A DNA stretch of 33,409 nucleotides from a virus: positions 1 to 33,409 of the IMG/VR virus record IMGVR_UViG_3300007538_000016, one strand, 5' to 3'. A model generated the notes under the pieces. The model made no database searches and was not told where the DNA came from. It saw only the letters and a list, made by a program, of their open reading frames with translations. Of this stretch, positions 4,971 to 17,666 are shown in pieces. The translations under genes were made by a program, and so were the position numbers. The stretch's first letter is position 1. Every line of letters begins with the position of its first letter.

Positions 4971-5735
4971 TTAAAACCTTTTCAGGAATAAAGAAGGTTG
5001 TTTCTTAACATTTGTTGGCAACGCCTTGATGTTTTCAATTCCAAGTACAGGAGTCATTACGTTGCTACCGAACAGAACAGCGCTAACCTCAAAGATTTTA
5101 GCTTCCTTAACGGCAAAGAAATAACCGCGTTGTTCAGCTTTTTCTTTGTTAATTACTTGAGGGAAGTACTTGAGCCAGTTCTTGTATTCGTCGCTGTCGC
5201 CTTCCTCATTGATAGCCATGTCTATTTTTACATACTGCAACCCTATCGAATGCTGAGTTACCTCGCCATTCTTGTACATTAGGTACAGCTTCTCGTCATA
5301 TTCACGCTTCGGTTCAAACTCGAATATCAATCCTTCGGCTTGTTTTACTTCACCTTCAGTATAGCCAATGTCAGAGAGAACAATATCTTCTGCATATACC
5401 GCAAGCGTTGTGCCTATCTTAGCTCCTATGCTATGCTCGTGATCGCGAAGCACCGGAATCGAAGTTCCTTTTTCATTGATTGACTTTAGCCAACTTCCAG
5501 GAAGCATCACGTCGTCGTGGCTGTCCATCCAGTTCGCAAGGTTGGCTATCAACTTCACGGAAAACCTATCGCTAACATCTGCTTTATTTGCTGTTGCTTT
5601 GGTCGCAGCTAAAAGCATAGACACATCAGAGAAAATAGGAAGCGCCCTTTTCTCTTTGATTATTTCGTCTTTCTTCTCTCGAAGGTGAGCGAATAACTCT
5701 TGCTTTGTTTCGAATGTTGGGATAGTTACTCTCAT
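4971..5735 (-). CDS. Prohead protease, HK97 (U35-like) family
   Basis: The 254-residue protein is a serine protease that cleaves the delta domain of the capsid protein during maturation. The region PVLRDHEHSIGAKIGTTL (residues 94-111) carries the candidate catalytic His (99 or 101). GEVTQHSIGLQYVKI (157-171) carries the candidate Ser163 in the usual position after a G-x-V/I strand. The 30-residue N-terminal extension is charged. It is translationally coupled to the portal (ATGA at 5732-5735) and followed by the capsid gene. Confidence 0.9.
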   Translation of the reverse strand: MRVTIPTFETKQELFAHLREKKDEIIKEKRALPIFSDVSMLLAATKATANKADVSDRFSVKLIANLANWMDSHDDVMLPGSWLKSINEKGTSIPVLRDHEHSIGAKIGTTLAVYAEDIVLSDIGYTEGEVKQAEGLIFEFEPKREYDEKLYLMYKNGEVTQHSIGLQYVKIDMAINEEGDSDEYKNWLKYFPQVINKEKAEQRGYFFAVKEAKIFEVSAVLFGSNVMTPVLGIENIKALPTNVKKQPSLFLKRF

Positions 5736-7003
5736 TGTTCTTGGTTATTAGTTGTTTCGCCTCGTGAAGTTATTGGTTTGGCTGTGTCGTATTGCTCGCC
5801 TGTTAAAGGCTCGTAGCCGATTTCTTGCCTAGCTTCGTTTGGTGTGATTATTCCTGCCTTCACATCTTCTCTTGCCTGAAGTCTAATTTCTTGTGGAGAA
5901 GGATTTAAGGCTTCAATCTCGGCTGTTTTAATTTTTATTAGATACTTCTTGCCGTCCATTTGTCCCCACCTCGAAAGGAATTTGCGCTTGTAGCCGTAAA
6001 GGAATCGCTTAGCATTAGGGATAAACACATCGTTGTAAAGGGTCTTCACCGCTTCTTCTCTGTTAGCGTGTGTCTTGTTTTCAGGGTCGTTGAACATTTC
6101 AGAAGGCATAAAGTAGGCCGTGCAAAGCTCCCTGAGTAGCTGGCTACCTTGCTCAATCATTTGCATGTCCGAAGCCGCCGCACCTAACTGCTGCACACGC
6201 GCAGGGCTACCGATTGTGATTACTGAATTTGCTCTGTGCGCTCCTCCTAAGTCTTGCCTAGTAGCTTCCTCAACTGCTTTTCTGTCTTTCTCAGTTAAGA
6301 CTAACCCGGTGCTTCCACCTTCTCCGGAGATAAGATTTGACACCCCTCTGTTTTTAAAGTACCACGCTTGAGCAGTCGCTTGGTTGTTCGAAGCTTCTAG
6401 CTTGTTCCAAGCCGCTTGCAATGGAGAAAGTCCATTTCTGTATAGCATCGAATCAACTGAGGGATTGAACATTCTCAGGTGCATAACCTCGTGAGGCATG
6501 AATTTCTGAACGCTGCCTCTGTTTGTGAATTGATAAGAACGCACTTCGCTAAGTAAGTCGTTTTGATTCTCAAGCACTATTTTCATCAATTCAGGAGGTG
6601 TACCGATAAGTCTTTCAGGCATAAATCCAATCTCTGAGGGGGCGATGAAATAAGCCTCACCGTTCAGAAAATAAAAAGCCATTTGGGCTTCGAGGTATTC
6701 TGCGAGCGTTTGGTCTTGGTTTGGATAAAAGACAAGGTCGTAAACCTGTCCTTCGGTGATTTCGATTAATTCTCCATTGCGTTCTTCGTAAAGGCCAAAG
6801 GGAAGAAAAGCTACTCCTTCAGCGGCTTTCTTAACAATAGCGTAGATATTCAGATTACTCATGTAACCTAATTCTACTGCCTGTCTGTCCGAAATTGAGT
6901 TGTACGAAAATGATGTTCCAAGCGGAAGAAAGAAGTTTCTGAATGTCGGCTCTGAGCGTAGTGTTCTCCACCAGTCTTTAAAGCCCCCAAGACGTACCGC
7001 CAT
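5732..7003 (-). CDS. Portal protein, HK97 family
   Basis: The 423-residue protein forms the dodecameric ring through which DNA is packaged. It shows the HK97-portal order: an N-terminal segment with a NIYAIVKKAAEGVAFLPFGLY helix, then QMAFYFLNGEAYF, then the central EVMHLRMFNPS..GLSPLQAA motif, and late SEMFNDPENKTHANREEAVK. It lies between the terminase and the protease and is preceded by TAATTTTG (7017-7024) with a TTTG 21 nt further upstream, the best-formed promoter in the genome. Confidence 0.95.
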   Translation of the reverse strand: MAVRLGGFKDWWRTLRSEPTFRNFFLPLGTSFSYNSISDRQAVELGYMSNLNIYAIVKKAAEGVAFLPFGLYEERNGELIEITEGQVYDLVFYPNQDQTLAEYLEAQMAFYFLNGEAYFIAPSEIGFMPERLIGTPPELMKIVLENQNDLLSEVRSYQFTNRGSVQKFMPHEVMHLRMFNPSVDSMLYRNGLSPLQAAWNKLEASNNQATAQAWYFKNRGVSNLISGEGGSTGLVLTEKDRKAVEEATRQDLGGAHRANSVITIGSPARVQQLGAAASDMQMIEQGSQLLRELCTAYFMPSEMFNDPENKTHANREEAVKTLYNDVFIPNAKRFLYGYKRKFLSRWGQMDGKKYLIKIKTAEIEALNPSPQEIRLQAREDVKAGIITPNEARQEIGYEPLTGEQYDTAKPITSRGETTNNQEQ

Positions 7004-7061: not shown

Positions 7062-8234
7062 CTACCTCCAAACATTCATTTTTAAAAATGTCACCACATA
7101 GCCGAGCGCGTCAATAGCGTGGTTGTGACTGTCTATTGGTACCTCACCTCTCTTGTCTGCCCATATGTAGTTATTTAGCTCATTCTCTAAGTTCGGGCTA
7201 TCGTCTATAATTATCTGAAAGTCTTGAATCCACTTGATCCGCTCGACAACTATTCCAGGGCGCTTGAAGCACGGGTTCATGTTATACCCCTCATCACGCA
7301 TCGAGTTGATAGTAATCATCTCGGCAATGTCGGCAATGATGAGGTCGTCTTTGGAGCAGTTATGCGCGATCATACGCTTTAGCCAAGACTCGCCTCTGTG
7401 GCCTGTTGGTTCATATACTAGCTCCTTAACGTATAGCAAGCGCTTGTCGTAGTCGGCAGCTACTTTGATTAGAACAAATGGATCTTTAATTCCCCAGTCA
7501 ACACCGAACATGAAAGGCAATGTATCATTAAACGTGCCTTTCTTCCACCTTGTGAATATCGCCCCTTCAAGCGCTGCATATTCCCCAAGACCATAAACCT
7601 TCCACCGGTATTCGTTTGCCGTTCCGTTGGCTATGTTTTCGGGAGTAGGCTCGTAGGATAGTATCTTCTGAACGGTCTTTTCCTCCAAAAAAGGGTTGTG
7701 CTTAAACGTGCTTTTGATTGTTCTCGTTTCTTTCCACCCCTCCATATTTTTGTCAGTTAGCCAAAAAGGACTTGAAGGGTTAAAGTCTGCCCATGCGTGT
7801 TTAGTGGTTCTGACGTAAATAGCGTCGAAAATTTCAAAGGAAATACCATTGACCTCATTGAAAAAAGTAAATTCACGCTTGCCATTCTTCGCGTCTTGCT
7901 CATCATCGTAGGAGTTAAACTCGATTTCACTCCCATTATAAAAGGTAAATATACGGTCCGTCTTGTTGTAGTCTTTTACTATTGACTGAATAAAAGGGCT
8001 TGAGTTGTATATCCTGAAAGCATCCCTGATAGCCCCCTTTTTTAAGTTCGGAATATCTTGACCGATTACTGAAATGGTAACGCCTGGATTCTCCCAAGCT
8101 TTTATAAACAGAACCTGAAGGATTGAGTAAGTCTTTCCTGAAGAAGTACCTCCTCTATTTATCGTCAGCTCACAGCCCTCAGGTATAAGGTAGTTAGCAT
8201 CAAATAACTTACTTGTTCTGAACGGTTGGCTCAT
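7062..8234 (-). CDS. terL: Terminase large subunit (Terminase_3-like)
   Basis: The 390-residue ATP-driven packaging motor and nuclease. Walker A is GGTSSGKT (residues 28-35). A Walker-B-like FTFFNE lies at 122-127. The nuclease domain has the expected acidic residues in VDWG (D246), IIADIAE (D302) and HAIDALGY (D375). The length is typical of compact Terminase_3 proteins. The start overlaps the TerS end by 26 nt. It packages genome concatemers into the prohead through the portal encoded next. Confidence 0.95.
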   Translation of the reverse strand: MSQPFRTSKLFDANYLIPEGCELTINRGGTSSGKTYSILQVLFIKAWENPGVTISVIGQDIPNLKKGAIRDAFRIYNSSPFIQSIVKDYNKTDRIFTFYNGSEIEFNSYDDEQDAKNGKREFTFFNEVNGISFEIFDAIYVRTTKHAWADFNPSSPFWLTDKNMEGWKETRTIKSTFKHNPFLEEKTVQKILSYEPTPENIANGTANEYRWKVYGLGEYAALEGAIFTRWKKGTFNDTLPFMFGVDWGIKDPFVLIKVAADYDKRLLYVKELVYEPTGHRGESWLKRMIAHNCSKDDLIIADIAEMITINSMRDEGYNMNPCFKRPGIVVERIKWIQDFQIIIDDSPNLENELNNYIWADKRGEVPIDSHNHAIDALGYVVTFLKMNVWR

Positions 8235-8667
8235 CGCCTTCGCTGATTATGGTTACTTTGCCGCCCTGAATGTTTACGTTTTGCGTGTTTTCAGTCTTAT
8301 CACCAAACACCTTTGGGTAGAATTTCGCCATTTTCCACTTCAAGGTCTGAACCAATGTATTGTAAGTAGAAGGGTCTATCTCTTTAGTAAGGAGCATATC
8401 CTTGTAGTCGTCCATCTCTTTTTCTAATGCTTCAGCTTTATCTTGATGGCTATTTATATACAATGTTTGTAATTCTTCATGCTCTCTTTTCCACCTTCTG
8501 AATGTACTCCAAGAAGGGAATCTATCGTTACTGTCCAGTATTTGCACAGTATTTCCTCCCTTAGCTATTTCCTCGCATATTTCGAGGCATATATCGTAGT
8601 TATATTCAGTCAGTCTAGCCACTTCACAGAGTTTGCTTACAGCTTGTCCACTTCTTTTGATAAACAT
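8209..8667 (-). CDS. terS: Terminase small subunit-like protein
   Basis: This 152-residue protein directly precedes and overlaps TerL. Residues 1-60 read as a helix-turn-helix region (a helix around LTEYNYDICLEICEEIA, then SWSTFRRWKREH), which suits recognition of the packaging site. A central helix (KAEALEKEMDDYKDMLL) suits oligomerisation. The C-terminus ends in a short beta-rich segment. TerS proteins diverge strongly, so the call combines the HTH-like region, size and position. Confidence 0.8.
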   Translation of the reverse strand: MFIKRSGQAVSKLCEVARLTEYNYDICLEICEEIAKGGNTVQILDSNDRFPSWSTFRRWKREHEELQTLYINSHQDKAEALEKEMDDYKDMLLTKEIDPSTYNTLVQTLKWKMAKFYPKVFGDKTENTQNVNIQGGKVTIISEGDEPTVQNK

Positions 8668-9326: not shown

Positions 9327-9703
9327 TTTTGATACGTTTTTGATGATTTTAACATTCTATAATTTTCCTTACTTCAATTTTCACTTTTTGTCAAAAATAG
9401 CCTTTTTTACCCCAAAATGTTACACTAATGTTACACTAATGTTACACCTAATTTTGACGTAACTTACTGATATGTGAACAAAAGTGTAACAATGTTACAC
9501 TGTTACACCTGTTTTGGAATTTTTGAAATTTTCTCTTTGACATTTTTATTTTTTACTAAAACTACTGTAACACTGTAACAATGTTACACCTTTTCTTACA
9601 TATCAATAAGTTAGCTCCATTTTTACTGTAACATTGGTGTAACATTTGGTGTAACATTCCGCGTTTTTTTGATTTGTTAATTTGAGCAATAATGCACACT
9701 TTT
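9327..9703. other. 377-bp non-coding region
   Basis: No gene is visible on either strand. It has AT-rich tracts (CTTTTTGTCAAAAATAGCC and TTTTTATTTTTTACTAAAAC) and the TGTTACAC repeat cluster annotated separately. It separates the primase/helicase stop from the nuclease start. Candidate roles are replication origin, packaging recognition site or a regulatory switch. Confidence 0.7.
9418..9656. repeat. TGTTACAC iteron cluster (candidate origin or pac/operator)
   Basis: Twelve copies of TGTTACA or its complement lie in 240 bp. Three direct TGTTACAC copies start at 9418, 9429 and 9440, exactly 11 bp apart (one helical turn). GTGTAACA-A-TGTTACAC (9484-9500) is palindromic apart from its centre and is followed at once by another copy (9501). 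TGTAACA copies start at 9566, 9574 and 9627, TGTTACAC at 9582 and GTGTAACA at 9637 and 9649, the last two 12 bp apart. AT-rich DNA flanks the array. Helically phased iterons plus palindromes indicate a protein-binding array. Confidence 0.85.
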
Positions 9704-12001
9704 TTAAACTTCATCTTTTAGGTGGCGCATTACTGTCATTCTTGACACTCCTAGCAAGTTTGCTACCTCTGTTCTATTAAAGTCGCTGTTGGCTTTGTAA
9801 ATTGCAAGTACCTGTTCTTTAATACTTTTCTTTGCGTTCTCATCAATTACTTTCTTGTAGTCGCCTATCTCAGTAGAATTAATTTTAATCTTCTGAGCGT
9901 TGGCCACGAAGTAATCTGATAGTCGAATCGCCTTTTTCATACTTTGCTCAGAAATAGGCCTAATTTCGCTCAAGTTGTTTTCAAAGAACAAATCGAAAAT
10001 GTGAATCAAAAGAGCAAAGCGAGGGATGTAGCTTTTTTGTTTCGGGTACATCGACTTCAGGTATTCGTTTTGTTCGTCGTCGTTTTCTTGCGCTGTAATC
10101 GTATTAAAGGCATTAACCCATACTTCCTTCGCTTCTTCAGAAAACGTCAATCTCTGTGGCTGTATTTGCCCCTCATCGTCCCTAATTACGTTCTGCTTCA
10201 TCTTTGAATGAAACGCAGTAATTCGCTCCTTGTACCAATGAATAATATCCTCGTCCATTTCTCGCTCGTTGTAGTTCTCTACTTTCGCATCCGGATAACA
10301 TAGCAGTAAACGGTCTGTGAAACCGTTTTCCTTGTTCTCTTGTGTCGAGAATTGGGAGAATATAGAAGGCTGAATACCACCAAGAACAGGAATAAATGGC
10401 ACGTCAACGAATCCGGACTTTGCAGTCTTACGATTCATAATAGCTGCCTCGCCCGACCAAGTGGATAGCCAAAACTCTAAATCAGATCCCTCGCGATACT
10501 TGTTCATGTCTTTAATCCAGCCTGCAAGCTCATCTTTAAATACTCCTACTGCGTTGTCGCTTTCCTGATGAAGTTCTACTAATGCCTCAAGGGTTATATC
10601 ATTAGCAATAAATTGCTCTTTTACAGGCTTTCGAACCTCAACCACATCTTCGCGTTCTTTCTTTGATAGCGAATTGTATTCTTCCCATTTCTCAAGCTCC
10701 TTGTAGTAACGCTTCACCTGGCGGCCGTTTATCTTTGTCAATGGAAACGTCATGTTTTTCACAGAAGGAGTTTTCCCAATTCCTGCCTTACCTACTAAGC
10801 ATAGCCATAAAGAACCGCGCTCAACCCATGCAGTCTTAACTTGAAGCTCCATTGAGTTACCTACGCAGACGCTTATTAGCCACAACATAGCGCACCCCAT
10901 GTAGTCAATGTTGGAGTTTAGCGTATCATGGCATTCAAGTATGTAGTTTTGTATAGGCTCCGGAAATATCTCCAAAGGAAAATCTAAAGCAGACTGATTA
11001 ATTTTATGTTCCTCAATTAAGTCTTTCTTTGTGCGTATGCGCTTCTCTTGATCATCAACTACCTTCTTTAGCCGATCACCGTAGCCCTCGTGATACAGCT
11101 TCGAGGCTGCTGCCGACATATCTCCATTGTGGTATTTATGAGCGTATGCCGCAAAAGGCGTGATGAGTTTTTCAGCAGGGTATATTGTTCCAGTCGAAAA
11201 TAAAAACATACAGCCTGAATCCTTGTACACATAGCCTGAATGAGCCGAAGTTGCTCCGTGTCGCTTAATTAAGTACTGCCTTTGCAAGTTCCTGACAACC
11301 GTAAAATCGCCTCCTATAACATCCCAAATATCTGTCTTCTCGTTGTAATCCTCCCAAGAAGGCTTTTCGTTGCCTGTGTACTTCTTTCTTGACTTCTTAG
11401 GCTCAGGTATAATCTCCTGCTCGTAATTGTAAAAGCGAGAGCATTCGAATAGAATCTCTCGGTCTTTGTCGCTGATAAAGTCAATCTCAAAATAAGACTT
11501 CTCGCTTACTTGGTTGTCAGGATAAACGAAAACATAGCCACCAGTTCCACGAGTTTCAATGATTGCCCCCTTGTGATTTTTAAGGGTTGCTACTTTTTGG
11601 TTTCCTTCAACGCGCTTAGACTTGTACAGAATGTGATAACCTTCAGACTTCGTTTTGTAAATTGCAAACTTCTTCTCAAAGTCGTAGATATTGTCTTTCA
11701 ATAAAGTGATAAACTCATCCCAAAAATCGCGCTGCTCTGCTGCTGTTGATAAGACTTTTAAATCAACATCAATAACTTCTAAAAAATCATAGCCTGTGAT
11801 GATGCCTATTGCTGTTGTGGCAGGCATCTCGTCACCGTTCTTCTTGATGTAGCCACCGTTGTAGTTAAATCTTCTAGTAAATTCCTGTGGCGTTAGCTTC
11901 TCGGTTTCGTTTTTTTTCCAAGAAAAGTTAGGTACTTTGTTCTCTCCAACTGTTAAAAGCGAAAAATGCTCTAAATACTTAAGTGCTTGATTTAATTCCA
12001 T
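9704..12001 (-). CDS. Bifunctional primase (prim-pol) / DUF3987 helicase
   Basis: The 765-residue replication protein starts with a primase-polymerase-type domain (catalytic pair in FLEVIDVDLK, D78 and D80; later GYHILYKSK). A linker module follows (WDVIGGDFTVVRNLQRQYL to AASKLYHEGYG, 226-307), then a DUF3987-type ATPase with Walker A GKAGIGKT (404-411) and a Walker-B-like GVFKDELAG. The last 30 residues form a helix-turn-helix (NRTEVANLLGVSRMTVMRHL), which could bind the iteron array directly downstream. It synthesises primers and unwinds the phage origin. No separate phage DNA polymerase was seen, so host polymerase is probably used. Confidence 0.88.
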   Translation of the reverse strand: MELNQALKYLEHFSLLTVGENKVPNFSWKKNETEKLTPQEFTRRFNYNGGYIKKNGDEMPATTAIGIITGYDFLEVIDVDLKVLSTAAEQRDFWDEFITLLKDNIYDFEKKFAIYKTKSEGYHILYKSKRVEGNQKVATLKNHKGAIIETRGTGGYVFVYPDNQVSEKSYFEIDFISDKDREILFECSRFYNYEQEIIPEPKKSRKKYTGNEKPSWEDYNEKTDIWDVIGGDFTVVRNLQRQYLIKRHGATSAHSGYVYKDSGCMFLFSTGTIYPAEKLITPFAAYAHKYHNGDMSAAASKLYHEGYGDRLKKVVDDQEKRIRTKKDLIEEHKINQSALDFPLEIFPEPIQNYILECHDTLNSNIDYMGCAMLWLISVCVGNSMELQVKTAWVERGSLWLCLVGKAGIGKTPSVKNMTFPLTKINGRQVKRYYKELEKWEEYNSLSKKEREDVVEVRKPVKEQFIANDITLEALVELHQESDNAVGVFKDELAGWIKDMNKYREGSDLEFWLSTWSGEAAIMNRKTAKSGFVDVPFIPVLGGIQPSIFSQFSTQENKENGFTDRLLLCYPDAKVENYNEREMDEDIIHWYKERITAFHSKMKQNVIRDDEGQIQPQRLTFSEEAKEVWVNAFNTITAQENDDEQNEYLKSMYPKQKSYIPRFALLIHIFDLFFENNLSEIRPISEQSMKKAIRLSDYFVANAQKIKINSTEIGDYKKVIDENAKKSIKEQVLAIYKANSDFNRTEVANLLGVSRMTVMRHLKDEV

Positions 12002-12066: not shown

Positions 12067-12333
12067 TTAGATGATTATTTCAAAATCGTTCACGCTGCAA
12101 TAAGTTACTTGTCCGCTATTGGATTGAAAATTCAAAGACAAGCCCTGAATCTTCAATCCTTTAACAGACACACTAACCACATCGTCGAAGTCCTGGCGCT
12201 CAAGCCAAGAATCGATAATCTTTTTTGCGAACATTTTTAAAGCAGGCCAGTTCTTATGCTCGAATGCCAACTGCATCGCCATAGCGTCCTTAGAATGGAA
12301 GGTCATCGTCCTCGTCAATTCCTGACTCAGCAT
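12067..12333 (-). CDS. Small conserved-context protein (88 aa)
   Basis: No family is recognised. The protein has a helical N-terminal part and a C-terminal half rich in beta strands (VVSVSVKGLKIQGLSLNFQS; the end reads CSVNDFEIII). It is the last gene of the recombination operon before the terminator. The start is uncertain: ATG at 12333 overlaps the SSB-like gene by 44 nt, and ATG at 12306 (overlap 17 nt) or 12282 (no overlap) would fit the operon's tight coupling equally well. Confidence 0.6.
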   Translation of the reverse strand: MLSQELTRTMTFHSKDAMAMQLAFEHKNWPALKMFAKKIIDSWLERQDFDDVVSVSVKGLKIQGLSLNFQSNSGQVTYCSVNDFEIII

Positions 12334-12664
12334 TTATTTGTACAGCCTCAGGGCTTGCAGTCGATTGAGCTACTCCGTCAGAGTTAAACAATACCTTTCC
12401 ATTTCCGATGTACGCTTTATCCGCTTTCGCTTCGCGTTCATCCTTTGTCTGCGATAACCACGCAGCCACATCTTGATCAAATTGGTTCTTCTCGTCAAAC
12501 ACCCCGACCGTTGTGTCAAGATATACGCGACCGCCTTTCTCAGCAGAGCCTTGAATTATCCCCCTTTGATTTAATGGGATAAGCAAGCAGGGCGTTCCCT
12601 TTGACGTTTTGTGAATTGCACTTTGGAACTTTGTCAGCTCGATTGATAGTCCTATGATTTTCAT
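12290..12664 (-). CDS. SSB-like single-stranded DNA-binding protein
   Basis: The 124-residue protein has a beta-rich N-terminal half (compatible with an OB fold) followed by a polar linker and the terminal tip DEDDDLPF. That tip closely matches the acidic D-D-D-I/L-P-F end by which bacterial SSB proteins recruit repair and replication partners. The core lacks an obvious standard SSB signature, so it is probably a diverged phage SSB. It sits next to the exonuclease and the annealing protein and would coat single strands during recombination-dependent replication. Confidence 0.75.
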   Translation of the reverse strand: MKIIGLSIELTKFQSAIHKTSKGTPCLLIPLNQRGIIQGSAEKGGRVYLDTTVGVFDEKNQFDQDVAAWLSQTKDEREAKADKAYIGNGKVLFNSDGVAQSTASPEAVQINAESGIDEDDDLPF

Positions 12665-13281
12665 TTGGTAAATTTTGAATAATTAATTTTAATAAATTCG
12701 CGAATGTTCCTTACTCGCTGCTGAAGGTCTGCAATAACTTCTTTGTCATACGCGACTTCAAACGTCTTTACTCGATACTTCTTGTCAAGCTGCTCATATC
12801 TTCTTTCAGGAAGATAAGGAGCAATGTCTTCAGGAGTGTCGAATAAACAATACACAAGCCTTGCTTTGGTCTTTCCAGTCAAGTGCATATACACTTGAAG
12901 TTGATAAAAGTAATCCTTTGTAGGAATTTTATTTTCAAACAAAGGAAAAGTAAAGCAATCCCATGAATTTTTAATGTCAATTACCTCATCGGCCAAAAGG
13001 ATGTCAGGAGTTCCCGTGAAATAATCATCCTCAAAGGTATCTTCGTTTTTCACTACCATTGATAAATCTAGCCAATCAATTACTTGGTCAATAGCGTGCG
13101 ACTCAAGCGCGTTGCCCTTGTCCAAGTACTTCGAATTTATTTCCTTTTGATAGCCGTAAATTTGCTCCTTTAGCCAGTCCTCAACGTATGTCTGAGTCGT
13201 TTTTGAAATCAAATCTGATTTATTTCTAGGGTTAGTCATAACCTTTCCTGAAGCCGAAGCTCTAATTTTAAACTCCTTCAT
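12661..13281 (-). CDS. YqaJ-like recombination exonuclease (PD-(D/E)xK)
   Basis: The 206-residue protein carries the lambda-exo/YqaJ nuclease core: KGNALESHA (E60), GTPDILLADEVIDIKNS (D93, D102, K104) and the QLQVYMHLTG motif with its helix-borne Gln (about 127). It resects double-strand ends to give single strands for the annealing protein encoded just upstream. It overlaps that gene by 14 nt and is coupled to the SSB-like gene by ATGA. Confidence 0.88.
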   Translation of the reverse strand: MKEFKIRASASGKVMTNPRNKSDLISKTTQTYVEDWLKEQIYGYQKEINSKYLDKGNALESHAIDQVIDWLDLSMVVKNEDTFEDDYFTGTPDILLADEVIDIKNSWDCFTFPLFENKIPTKDYFYQLQVYMHLTGKTKARLVYCLFDTPEDIAPYLPERRYEQLDKKYRVKTFEVAYDKEVIADLQQRVRNIREFIKINYSKFTK

Positions 13282-13891
13282 CGCTCAGCATTTTAATTTG
13301 TTCGTCTGAAAGGTCATAATTCTGAGAAAGCTGCTCGACTGTAATAGAGCCTTCCTTTACTGCCTGCACAGCCTTCTTCCATTTATCGCTTCCTACTTCG
13401 ATTGTCGGAGCGATTTTTACTTCGCGAAATTCGTCAGGGTGATATACGTCTTGAGCGATGCCTAGTTCGGCTGCACACTTTTTGAGCGCGTCGGTGGCCG
13501 CAGCCTTCATGTCGTTTCCAATCGACAAAGGCACATCACTTCCCTTGCGAAACATAATGTCTTTGTTGCCATACTGGGTCTTTACAATCGTGCGCCCGGC
13601 GCTTCTGCAAGTCAGCCTACCTTTAACGACAACTTCCTTGCATTCAATCATTACCTTTTCGTCAAGGATCTCAAAATCCCAATCCCAACCGAACATCAAG
13701 TTCAGGCATTTGCGGACATAACTTCCCGACACATAACTCCACTTTCCACCGCCTTTGGCTGGCCGTTGCTTAATATACTGAGAAGGCGTTTTCTTCAAAA
13801 TAAATTGAAGCTGTTTGTCATTGAGGCTAACCTCCTGGCCTACTAAAGTCATGTCAGACTTCTTAATCAGCGCTACTTCGTTTTTATCCAT
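13268..13891 (-). CDS. Rad52-family single-strand annealing protein
   Basis: The 207-residue protein follows the Rad52/Sak pattern: YIKQRPAKGGGKWSYVSGSY (39-58), a central beta sheet (FEILDEKVMIECKEVVVKGRL), and the characteristic GNDMKAAATDALKKCAAELG helix (125-144). It anneals complementary single strands and forms a functional pair with the exonuclease that follows. It has its own TATATTTG element 22 nt upstream and is probably expressed early. Confidence 0.88.
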   Translation of the reverse strand: MDKNEVALIKKSDMTLVGQEVSLNDKQLQFILKKTPSQYIKQRPAKGGGKWSYVSGSYVRKCLNLMFGWDWDFEILDEKVMIECKEVVVKGRLTCRSAGRTIVKTQYGNKDIMFRKGSDVPLSIGNDMKAAATDALKKCAAELGIAQDVYHPDEFREVKIAPTIEVGSDKWKKAVQAVKEGSITVEQLSQNYDLSDEQIKMLSDEGV

Positions 13892-13932: not shown

Positions 13933-14145
13933 TTACGCATCAATACAAAGAATAGTTTTTGCGCTTTTTCGCAGCAAAGCCCCTGAATATTCCCAAGCAT
14001 TGCACTTGATGCCGTTTACTTCGATTTGAGAAGTAGGTTCTTTTTGCGTGAAATGCGACACACGCGCACGAAAGTAGTTCTTCTTTTCGATTTTTTTGAT
14101 TTGACAGTATTCGCTAACACTTACCCATTCGGTTACTTTAGTCAT
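13933..14145 (-). CDS. Small excisionase/HTH-like protein (70 aa)
   Basis: The N-terminus (EWVSVSEYCQIKKIEKKNYFRA) has the look of a MerR/Xis-type winged-helix start, in which 'VSEYCQI' would begin recognition. The remainder is short and ends ILCIDA. It is coupled to the DnaA-like gene by ATGA. It may be a small DNA-binding regulator. The family assignment is weak. Confidence 0.5.
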   Translation of the reverse strand: MTKVTEWVSVSEYCQIKKIEKKNYFRARVSHFTQKEPTSQIEVNGIKCNAWEYSGALLRKSAKTILCIDA

Positions 14146-14606
14146 GATTTCAATTTTGATATTTGTTTTTGAATTTCGTTTCTTTCCTGAATTAAAGCTT
14201 CGATGCTAAGCTGCTTCAATTCTTCCTGCAATTCCTGCATTCGTTTTTGTATCTTAAGCTTTCGCCTCATCAGCTCATCGTTGAGGTTGTAATACTCATT
14301 TATATAATGAGCAGTTCCTTCGAGGATGTTATACTGCTGCATATTAAACGGCCTACCTTGCTTGTTCAGCAACTTCCATGTTGGTATCACCCGGTCGCGC
14401 GAGTTCATCACAGTAGCATGGTCGCGATTACTTACCCTTCCTATTGCATCAAGAGTAGCTTCTCCTTTAAAGTACTTCCAAGCAAAGTAGTGAAACAAAT
14501 GCCTTGAGCGCACTACTTCTTGTTTTCTTGACTTGCTTTTTACCTCCTCTACTGTTACCGAGTTAAATTCGCAAATCAATTCCATTAATTCTTCCAGTTT
14601 CTTCAT
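14142..14606 (-). CDS. DnaA domain IV-like DNA-binding protein without ATPase
   Basis: The 154-residue protein carries the DnaA C-terminal signature: SKSRKQEVVRSRHLFHYFAW (25-44), then TLDAIGR and NRDHATVMNSRDRV (about 51-73). This corresponds to the R-x-x-x-V-x-x-R helix and the G-x-RDH(T/A)TV recognition motif. No AAA+ domain is present, so it cannot melt an origin alone. Residues 105-154 are a long coiled coil that could dimerise it. It may bind DnaA-box-like sites in host or phage DNA, to direct replication or displace host DnaA. Confidence 0.82.
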   Translation of the reverse strand: MKKLEELMELICEFNSVTVEEVKSKSRKQEVVRSRHLFHYFAWKYFKGEATLDAIGRVSNRDHATVMNSRDRVIPTWKLLNKQGRPFNMQQYNILEGTAHYINEYYNLNDELMRRKLKIQKRMQELQEELKQLSIEALIQERNEIQKQISKLKS

Positions 14607-15250: not shown

Positions 15251-15326
15251 TTTAATCCCGTACTACTTACAACAATGTATAAACCCCATTAAAACGAGGG
15301 TTTATACTCAACGTTATCGCAAATAC
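15251..15326. repeat. Boundary element S2: hairpin with AAC/GTT cores (attC-like)
   Basis: A perfect 10-bp inverted repeat, GTATAAACCC (15277-15286) and GGGTTTATAC (15298-15307), has an 11-nt loop. Outside it are CTTACAAC (15266-15273) and CAACGTTATCGC (15309-15320). The flank TTTAATCCCGTACT (15251-15264) recurs as TTTAATCGTACT at S3. GTTATCGCAAATAC (15313-15326) abuts the IbrA-like stop and is the inverted match of S3's GTACTTGCGATAAC. No T run follows, so it is not a standard terminator. Confidence 0.7.
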
Positions 15327-16537
15327 TAGGAAAGCTCGTGTGCTATCCTTCTTTTTTCCTTGATAGCTTTATATTTTTCATAAGCTTCAGATTTAGGCTG
15401 CGTTTGTCCTAACCCTTTACAGTAGTAGTCATTTCGCAATATACATCTAGCCATTCTCTTCCAACTTGGAGCCCAGCACTTTACTTCTAGTTCATGAGGA
15501 GCCTCATCTGGAATAAATGCATACCCCCTTTTCTTCCATCCAACGATAAATTTTATAAAATTTTGCTTGTAATGTTGTTGCATGGTGACGGGAAGCGACT
15601 TTAAAAGATAATTAACATAGCTCTCCCATGTATGATTTTCGGGTTTAGTAACATCATTATAGCCATTTATATTACCTCTTTCGTTAATATACAAAGAACC
15701 TGAATTTACTCCACTAACTCTATTTAAAAGCTTGTACCATGTATTAGGCTCAAGAATATGATAAAGCCACAAACCCCTCTTCTGGTCATCTCCAAATGGC
15801 TGACAAAGCCTTTGATTGCTTAACTTCACTCCAGCCCTTGTCATCATGTCGTAAATAGTATTGTGAGATAAGTATTTATGTTTAGAGTGAAATACCCAAA
15901 TATCCTCCGTTCTCCAATCGTATATAGGATAAACATTGTAAAGGTTTTTAGACACTAATGTAGTCCACTTGTGATTATCAAACATAAGCCCGCTTTTGTC
16001 AGAAACAATAGCTCTGTATCTATGAAGGCTTTCATCTGCTCTAATTCCAATAAAGCCAGCAGTCAAAGCACCTGCTGAATACCATTTCCCAAAAAGCACC
16101 ATAAATTCTTCAAATTCCATTTTTGGAATGTAAAAATCATATTGGCTTAAATCAGATGCTTCATTTGGTTTATCTCTTACCCATATATCTTTATTCTCTT
16201 CATCCCAACAAACCCATTTAGGTTGAAAATCACTAACAGCATTACGAAGCAATAATTCTCCACAAAACCAGTGTAAATCAATATTATCTTTGTATTCTTC
16301 AACAATTTCTCTCACATGGTCTATTGTATTTTTATATTGAGCCTCTAAGTCTATTATTAATAGCCCAACCTTAACTCCCCTTTTTTTAGCTTCCGCCATT
16401 ACTAGGTGTGTCATAACTGTTGAATCTTTGCCTCCACTAAAGCTAATATAGTATTTATCAAACTTGTCAAATACCTTACTAATTCTTTCTTTTGATGCTT
16501 CTAACACAGTTTTGTCTATGTAATTCTTTGTTGCCAT
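15326..16537 (-). CDS. ibrA: IbrA-like PAPS-reductase-family protein (PP-loop ATP pyrophosphatase)
   Basis: The 403-residue protein has the PP-loop SGGKDST (residues 34-40) of the PAPS reductase/ATP-pyrophosphatase fold, followed by an LLIIDLEAQY segment and the C-terminal region (CWAPSWKRMARCILRNDYYC) typical of DUF3440/IbrA proteins. These enzymes adenylate a substrate and are related to DndC of DNA phosphorothioation, but the IbrA substrate is unknown. In E. coli ibrA and ibrB control eib gene expression. It lies 1 nt downstream of ibrB. Base use looks more A+T-rich than in phage backbone genes. Possible roles are nucleic-acid modification or control of host gene expression. Confidence 0.85.
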   Translation of the reverse strand: MATKNYIDKTVLEASKERISKVFDKFDKYYISFSGGKDSTVMTHLVMAEAKKRGVKVGLLIIDLEAQYKNTIDHVREIVEEYKDNIDLHWFCGELLLRNAVSDFQPKWVCWDEENKDIWVRDKPNEASDLSQYDFYIPKMEFEEFMVLFGKWYSAGALTAGFIGIRADESLHRYRAIVSDKSGLMFDNHKWTTLVSKNLYNVYPIYDWRTEDIWVFHSKHKYLSHNTIYDMMTRAGVKLSNQRLCQPFGDDQKRGLWLYHILEPNTWYKLLNRVSGVNSGSLYINERGNINGYNDVTKPENHTWESYVNYLLKSLPVTMQQHYKQNFIKFIVGWKKRGYAFIPDEAPHELEVKCWAPSWKRMARCILRNDYYCKGLGQTQPKSEAYEKYKAIKEKRRIAHELS

Positions 16538-16538
16538 A

Positions 16539-17666
16539 TTAGTATAATTCTACTTGTCTCCCTTTCAATAGAGCCGTGTTAATATCTATTTCGTTTCTAC
16601 CATTTTCCATAAGCCATTTATTAAGATAAATAAACGCCACTTCATTAGCTTCTTTTTGTTGTTCTTCAGTTAAATCAAACCAAGCACTACTATAAGCTGA
16701 TGGGACTCCGCTATGATAACAAACAGCAGCTTGTCCGAGCCATGCAATTCTATTCATGCTGTTATTTGTAAGATAGTGTTCGCAAGAGTGTTTCCATTCG
16801 TTTATAACTTTTTCTAAAATAGATGCAAATAAATCTACATTTGATAATATTCTAACATATTCTGATTTACACTCTTCATTTGTTAGTCCTTGCTTTTTAC
16901 TGTTGTAAAACCCGTATTTATGGCACTCCCATTTGTCGTATGTGTGAAAAATACGCGAACTATCACCTTCATTTGGTATTTTATATTTATCCATGTATTC
17001 ATCAACATTATCACTAATTTTTTCGTATTCGTGAATAGTATCCGATGATTCCCACGCTTTGCTAAAATCGCTATCTGAAAATAAATGCTCTAGTCCAGAT
17101 ATTTGGCAAAGTCTTAATACTTCTTCTTCATCCATGCCTAGCTGTTTGGCAATTCTATGATTAGTCCAATTCCTATTTTTTAGCTCTATAACAATTTCGC
17201 TCATTGCGTCAACTTGATGCTTGCCTCTAGCTCTATTATGTCTAATAGTTGAAGCTATACGGTCATTTTTTCCAGCCTGCTCGCTTCTTATGTTAACGAT
17301 AGGTAGATAGCCCATAATTCGCTTTGAAACTATTTTAGATTCTTTACCAACTCTATTTCTATGGAATCCATCAATAACCTCAATTTTTTCTTTATCGTCG
17401 TTTTCCCATGTAACAATTGGCTGTGTATAACCATCATTTATAATTGAAATTTCAAGCAATTCCATTTCGGGTGGTGCAACTTTATTTGGGTTGTAGTCAT
17501 TTGATACTACATTCTCATTTAATACCCATTTAACGAAATCTACTGGCTCATTTTTAAATGGAGAATTAACATGAATAAACTCTCTAATTTCATTTATTGC
17601 ATCAATTCTTTTTTTGATGCTGCCATTTTCAATCTGTAATAAAATTTGTTTTTTTAAATTTTCCAT
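16539..17666 (-). CDS. ibrB: IbrB-like ParB/sulfiredoxin-fold protein
   Basis: The 375-residue protein starts with a helical segment and then has a ParB/Srx-type domain: DYNPNKVAPPEMELLEIS, GYTQPIV, KIEVIDGFHRNRVGK (94-108, with the conserved D-G-x-H-R) and the TIRHNRARGKH box (140-150). A helix-turn-helix follows (NWTNHRIAKQLGMDEEEVLRL, 166-186). The C-terminal 150 residues are specific to IbrB relatives. ParB/Srx proteins use nucleotides (CTP or ATP) and often bind DNA. It is co-transcribed with the PAPS-reductase-like gene. No TAnnTTTG element is visible; the AT-rich leader lies in boundary element S3. Confidence 0.83.
   Translation of the reverse strand: MENLKKQILLQIENGSIKKRIDAINEIREFIHVNSPFKNEPVDFVKWVLNENVVSNDYNPNKVAPPEMELLEISIINDGYTQPIVTWENDDKEKIEVIDGFHRNRVGKESKIVSKRIMGYLPIVNIRSEQAGKNDRIASTIRHNRARGKHQVDAMSEIVIELKNRNWTNHRIAKQLGMDEEEVLRLCQISGLEHLFSDSDFSKAWESSDTIHEYEKISDNVDEYMDKYKIPNEGDSSRIFHTYDKWECHKYGFYNSKKQGLTNEECKSEYVRILSNVDLFASILEKVINEWKHSCEHYLTNNSMNRIAWLGQAAVCYHSGVPSAYSSAWFDLTEEQQKEANEVAFIYLNKWLMENGRNEIDINTALLKGRQVELY

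Follow-up and report, generated by a model that had tools for sequence, protein, structure and literature searches.

The window analyzed here is a 33,409-nt stretch of viral DNA that encodes TerS, TerL, a major head protein, and a tape measure protein. Within it, the presumed replication initiator (9704–12001, minus strand) is a 765-aa protein in which a domain search identified Prim-Pol (PF09250, residues 6–170), a DUF3987 helicase-like ATPase (residues 365–705), and a C-terminal HTH (HTH_8, PF02954, scoring at the family cut-off, about residues 727–763), and no Toprim domain. This combination of an AEP-type primase, DUF3987, and a C-terminal HTH/WH is that of the AEP primase-helicases with DUF3987 (the PrimQH/all3500-like groups), and a profile search of solved structures gave nothing convincing. 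Upstream of the initiator gene lie an SSB-like ORF (12290–12664), so classified from its acidic tail, and, in the same replication module, a recombination exonuclease (12661–13281, minus strand) and a Rad52-like annealing protein (13268–13891, minus strand). On the other side of the intergenic region that concerns us are a nuclease-like ORF, a small lipoprotein-like ORF, and the TerS and TerL genes, the last two at a distance of 1–2 kb, a gene context that agrees with an earlier note made on this DNA.

The intergenic region contains twelve TGTTACA/TGTAACA heptamers at 9418–9656 (nine as perfect TGTTACAC octamers, the other three as TGTTACAG), 47 bp from the stop codon of the initiator gene, and the perfect octamer does not recur in the rest of the window. 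The same number had been given in the earlier note, which judged the array too ordered for chance; indeed, the 7-mer occurs twelve times in 239 bp, whereas dinucleotide shuffling of this flank (100 rounds) gave 2.9 on average and never more than 4. The copies form four triplets around a single dyad, with the orientations (+++)(−++) core (−−+)(−−−). Outer triplet A (9418–9447, plus strand) consists of TGTTACAC at 9418, 9429, and 9440, which is the exact 11-bp spacing previously described, while inner triplet A (9484–9508), with sites at 9484 (−), 9493 (+), and 9501 (+), holds the 17-nt palindrome GTGTAACA-A-TGTTACAC at 9484–9500. Inner triplet B (9565–9589) has sites at 9565 (−), 9573 (−), and 9582 (+) and includes the second of the two palindromes already noticed, TGTAACA-A-TGTTACA at 9574–9588. 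Outer triplet B (9626–9656, minus strand) has sites at 9626, 9637, and 9649, phased at 11–12 bp. Each of the twelve sites has an oppositely oriented mirror partner, at approximately 116, 105, 93, 48, 40, and 32 bp from the dyad center (p = 0.002 for the layout, which is the floor of 400 shuffles).

The inner triplets enclose a 58-bp AT-rich core (9508–9565, dyad center at ~9537), a putative DNA-unwinding element whose central 50 bp are ~84% AT compared to 58% for the whole record. AT-rich flanks had been described before, and AT-rich sequence is indeed present, but its important part is the core and not the flanks only; both the core and the dyad of the whole array had been overlooked. The two spacers that separate outer from inner triplets are inverted copies of each other. 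Spacer B carries TATCAATAAGTTA (9601–9613, plus strand), which perfectly matches the E. coli IHF consensus WATCAANNNNTTR, and spacer A carries the IHF-like element TATCAGTAAGTTA (9460–9472, minus strand), with one mismatch to it.

Arrays beside relatives of the primase

At least 80 relatives of the primase were found in IMG/VR. Clustering at 85% identity gave 20 groups, 17 of which could be tested because both flanks were readable. An array is present in 16 of these 17 non-redundant relatives (40–56% identity), within ~1.3 kb or less of the gene; the sole exception, L004, has none in 9 kb of sequence. Each of the sixteen arrays contains 7–14 copies of one 7-mer within at most 320 bp, the shuffle maxima being 4–5. 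Among GTDB genomes, an alignment-based scan identified two good primase relatives, one in a Bacteroidota MAG and one in a Saprospirales MAG, where a first scan with the single primase protein as query had found none. More distant DUF3987/Prim-Pol proteins in cultured phages (Cellulophaga phi40:1 and gut scaffolds) have no comparable array, except for an AACTGCA cluster in L232, and blastn of the array region against cultured phages gave no match.

The iteron sequence varies among the relatives, while the layout is largely kept. The window and L123 share GTGTAACA, L011 and L129 GTGTAACC, L010 and L018 GTGTAAAC/GTGTACAC, and L163 and L167 GTTTAAAA, whereas single loci have GTGTACAC (L201), GTGTAAAA (L020), GTGTGAAA (L122), GGTAAACT (L007), TACTGTAAA (L006), GTGTACAA (L078), AAAGTGTG (L198), and GTGGGACA (L005). 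The common layout runs from an outer cluster over a 35–45 bp spacer and an inner cluster to an AT-rich core of ~50 bp, and is then mirrored. Considering positions only, the mirror symmetry of the sixteen arrays gives a combined p of 1.9 × 10−5 against shuffled gaps, with the poorest fits in L005, L201, and L078. An orientation-sensitive version of the test is not significant when combined over the relatives, though it is for the window alone; the window and L084 are exactly symmetrical in orientation, and L129, L011, and L006 are not. The core is 76–96% AT in 14 of the 16 representatives and exceeds the locus average in all except L201, for which the center derived from positions alone is probably wrong.

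The spacers are enriched in IHF-consensus sites. Perfect matches to the E. coli consensus number eight over the sixteen arrays, compared to 0.14 expected (maximum of 3 in 2000 shuffles), a count that was not blind, as the idea came from eyeing the window and some of the relatives beforehand. These sites are spread over seven arrays (the window, L129, L122, L020, L167, L198, and, with two sites, L007), while eleven control zones of equal length contain zero or one match each. Another 23 arrays, retrieved separately, contain four perfect sites compared to 0.20 expected.

Some of these loci have additional features. In L010, L018, L073, and most of their clade, a second array (TAGTGGAA/TAGTGTAA) lies upstream of the primase at a distance of ~3 kb; its copies in L073 (2400–2816) have nearly a single orientation, in contrast to the mirrored array, and it is possibly an operator or an accessory replication site. 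Directly 5′ of the mirrored array in the same three loci is a ~151-aa protein (5216–5671 in L073) with several HTH-like units, whose gene overlaps the array at its 3′ end and which may be a regulator of the origin. In L005, a GIY-YIG-like protein (5281–5739) with what reads as its own C-terminal HTH lies between array and primase.

Probable replication origin and competing explanations

The array is very likely the replication origin of the phage, of the theta type and probably bidirectional. Copies of the primase-helicase would bind the twelve iterons via their C-terminal HTH, the outer triplets being phased at 11–12 bp so that the bound copies would line up on the same helical face. Each spacer may then be bent by an IHF/HU-type protein such that the outer triplet meets the inner one, and the mirrored half-sites would carry two oppositely oriented assemblies, resulting in melting of the AT-rich core, loading of two helicase rings in opposite directions, and priming of synthesis by the Prim-Pol domain. 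IHF or HU aids opening at oriC, pSC101, and R6K gamma (PMC5043065), and a C-terminal winged helix has been proposed to recognize the origin in AEP primase-helicases, including DUF3987 fusions (PMC5862659). Of the three functions that the earlier note had considered for the array, an origin bound by the primase HTH is the one that comparative evidence supports well: arrays accompany the primase relatives and share the mirrored layout, the AT-rich core, and the IHF-type sites, from which we infer the binding. What speaks against the model is that the position of the array relative to the primase gene varies, that L004 lacks an array, that orientation symmetry is inexact in some relatives, and that arrays with the TGTTACA core also occur beside non-homologous helicases. 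GC skew, proposed earlier as a check, is negative nearly throughout the window and is uninformative because nearly all genes are on one strand.

As judged from sequence, the primase HTH is the most economical candidate for the iteron-binding element, since it is always present, lies next to the array, and belongs to the type that one would expect. HTH-family matches are spread over the 20 family members scanned, and HTH-like sequence is found at the C-terminus of every representative in which the C-terminus is intact. A partial Mantel test of iteron against HTH sequence, corrected for the helicase domain, is not significant (r = 0.12, p = 0.15, n = 16), and gives the HTH no independent support as the iteron reader. 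A narrower covariation, in which GTG is mostly found in the iterons of members whose recognition helix begins with SR, was discarded as post hoc and based on few lineages; the GTG pattern is missing from the iterons of L163 and L167 (SL at the helix start) and L007 (TK). The Mantel result leaves room for an origin that is mainly recognized by another factor, either the Prim-Pol/helix-bundle part acting on single-stranded priming sites or a host protein. NrS-1 polymerase does recognize 8-nt template sites without a zinc motif (PMC8775771), and the presence of TGTTACA arrays beside different helicases suggests a common recognition domain or a common host factor. We nevertheless consider this unlikely, since the iterons lie outside the meltable core and are helically phased like double-stranded sites, the HTH-like sequence is so consistently present, and the variation of the iterons between relatives fits a single host factor poorly.

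It is quite improbable that the array is an operator or promoter region for the flanking transcription units without origin function. It does occupy the gap ahead of the nuclease-TerS-TerL genes, and self-repression by the initiator is conceivable, as the array is located just 5′ of the primase in most relatives. However, it switches sides while keeping its mirrored layout: four arrays (those of the window, L011, L129, and L123) are 3′ of the gene and the remaining twelve are 5′ of it, always on one side only and never with a second one opposite. Twelve sites over 240 bp, together with an AT-rich core and IHF-type sites, are also more than an operator needs. Of the operator proposed in the earlier note, then, the sole role is unlikely, and a regulatory role added to origin function is possible.

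The same note had also suggested a packaging site recognized by TerS, and a pac or cos site would suit the proximity of the terminase genes, the frequent use of repeats as TerS targets, and L087, in which a GTGTAGTA array directly follows TerL. This reading is very improbable and fails on L084, a close relative with a primase that is 97% identical over partial sequence, a TerL that is 94% identical, and an array nearly identical to that of the window, including the perfect IHF-consensus site. The 122-aa TerS of L084 (1945–2313) is unrelated to the window TerS (8209–8667) save for the last 30 residues. As TerS has been exchanged with the array unchanged, the array stays with the replication module and does not co-vary with the TerS DNA-binding domain, as a TerS packaging site would. 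Moreover, the array of L011 is 3.5 kb from the terminase ORFs, TerL relatives at 57–72% identity have no TGTTACA array near TerL, and in L111 the GTGTAGTA array comes after a VapE helicase, 2.5 kb from TerS. The near-identity of the L084 array is all the more telling for the origin model because a 176-aa methyltransferase-like ORF with a DPPY motif (326–856), absent from the window, has been inserted between primase and array.

A partition or centromere-like site for the ParB-like protein (16539–17666), or a site for a DnaA_C-like protein (14142–14606), is hardly credible: both proteins have DNA-binding domains and partition sites can consist of iterons, but no ParB-like homologue was found in the remaining loci with arrays (each covering up to 14 kb), only 3 of the 12 array-containing virus records have a DnaA_C domain, two of them below the cut-off, and the array contains no DnaA box TTATNCACA. 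Nearly all other array loci lack the DnaA_C-like protein and a 70-aa protein of the window. The former is a 154-aa protein with an HTH resembling DnaA domain IV (PF08299) at its N-terminus, the rest of DnaA being absent, and has a 67% identical homologue in L003. The ParB-like gene is adjacent to a PAPS reductase/DUF3440 gene in a segment (15326–17666) with low GC content (33–35%) and strong skew that looks like a recently acquired cassette.

Known origins and arrays beside other helicases

The closest parallels to the presumed origin come from mobile elements. In the origins of PICIs and SaPIs (SaPIbov1 and EcCICFT073), two iteron sets flank an AT-rich region beside the initiator gene (PMC6092414, PMC7581432), and the iterons are bound by the C-terminal domain of SaPI Rep, as they are by that of SCCmec Cch2 (PMC7581432). 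The window shares with them an initiator with a helicase core and a C-terminal DNA-binding domain, as well as an array immediately 3′ of the initiator gene, although it is 5′ in 12 of the 16 representatives. Unlike them, it has a Prim-Pol/DUF3987 initiator and an outer and an inner cluster per side with an IHF-type site in between, and the element, a tailed phage rather than a satellite, encodes its own capsid, portal, terminase, and tail proteins. By analogy, the window origin would work like a PICI-type origin in an element that is not itself a PICI. SCCmec Cch2 with CCPol-MP is similar in that the C-terminal domain of the initiator helicase attaches to short repeats, as we infer for the window, with the repeats directly downstream of the operon and priming at the same site; it differs in having separate polypeptides and three AAGTG repeats, no mirrored four-cluster array being reported (PMC7581432). 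The pRN1 protein ORF904 also combines Prim-Pol, helicase, and a C-terminal winged helix, with the origin adjoining the gene, but its helicase is of the SF3 type instead of DUF3987 (PMC4234260). As cited in the same source, the P4 alpha protein binds origin repeats with a winged helix and, like the window initiator with its HTH, unites primase, helicase, and a C-terminal DNA-binding domain in one polypeptide, the P4 primase being of the Toprim type rather than an archaeo-eukaryotic Prim-Pol, a comparison made at the protein level (PMC4234260). The sequences suggest an origin of a known type that occurs in a new setting, has a more elaborate layout, and uses a new class of initiator.

For most uncultivated tailed phages no origin is known, and the array provides a recognizable and testable signature: mirrored iterons, an AT-rich core, and IHF-type spacers beside a Prim-Pol/DUF3987 gene, in a family that occurs in Bacteroidota bins and in numerous virus contigs from the environment. 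It would also tie uncharacterized DUF3987 proteins to origin firing, and the presence of such a layout in full phages bears on the source of PICI origins.

Similar arrays are found beside other helicases. A primase-blind search, in which viral contigs were scanned for GTGTAACANNNGTGTAACA and arrays with at least seven TGTAACA sites were kept, gave at least 28 arrays, at least 23 of them distinct, among the matches listed. The accompanying initiators are Prim-Pol/DUF3987 (L255, and with fewer sites L251 and L281), VapE-like (L313, with a VapE match in L252), D5_N/DUF5906 (L286, L248, L257, and L265), DUF5906/VapE (L296, L245, and L260), and Toprim_3 with AAA (L267); L297 has a DUF5906 match below the threshold, and for several arrays no initiator was found in the part of the contig covered. 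Because the same TGTTACA core occurs beside non-homologous helicases, the iteron sequence is not specific to the Prim-Pol/DUF3987 initiator. One of these loci, L267, even carries the same 13-mer, TATCAGTAAGTTA, as spacer A of the window. We therefore raise, tentatively and at somewhat short of even odds, the possibility that the origin with mirrored iterons acts as a portable module serving non-homologous initiators (Prim-Pol/DUF3987, VapE, D5_N/DUF5906, and Toprim-AAA) in phages with helicase relatives from different bacterial phyla, and comprising a nearly constant TGTTACA/TGTAACA array, outer and inner clusters, an AT-rich core, and sometimes IHF-type spacers. If so, the layout that has been considered unique to PICIs would be common among phage origins, and the module and the helicase core would be swapped independently of each other.

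Among cultured phages, related helicases are encoded by phages of Gordonia, Paenibacillus, and staphylococci. No array was found near the related helicase gene of Gordonia phage Pherobrine. Paenibacillus phage LincolnB has, 3′ of its primase, an AT-rich stretch flanked by five copies of TAACAGA, and Staphylococcus phage PI-Sepi-HH2 has one 3′ of the related gene, flanked by nine copies of TAAGACA. Sparse GTGTAGTA arrays of four to five copies with an AT-rich center are located at 400–700 in L111 and at 1990–2250 in L087.
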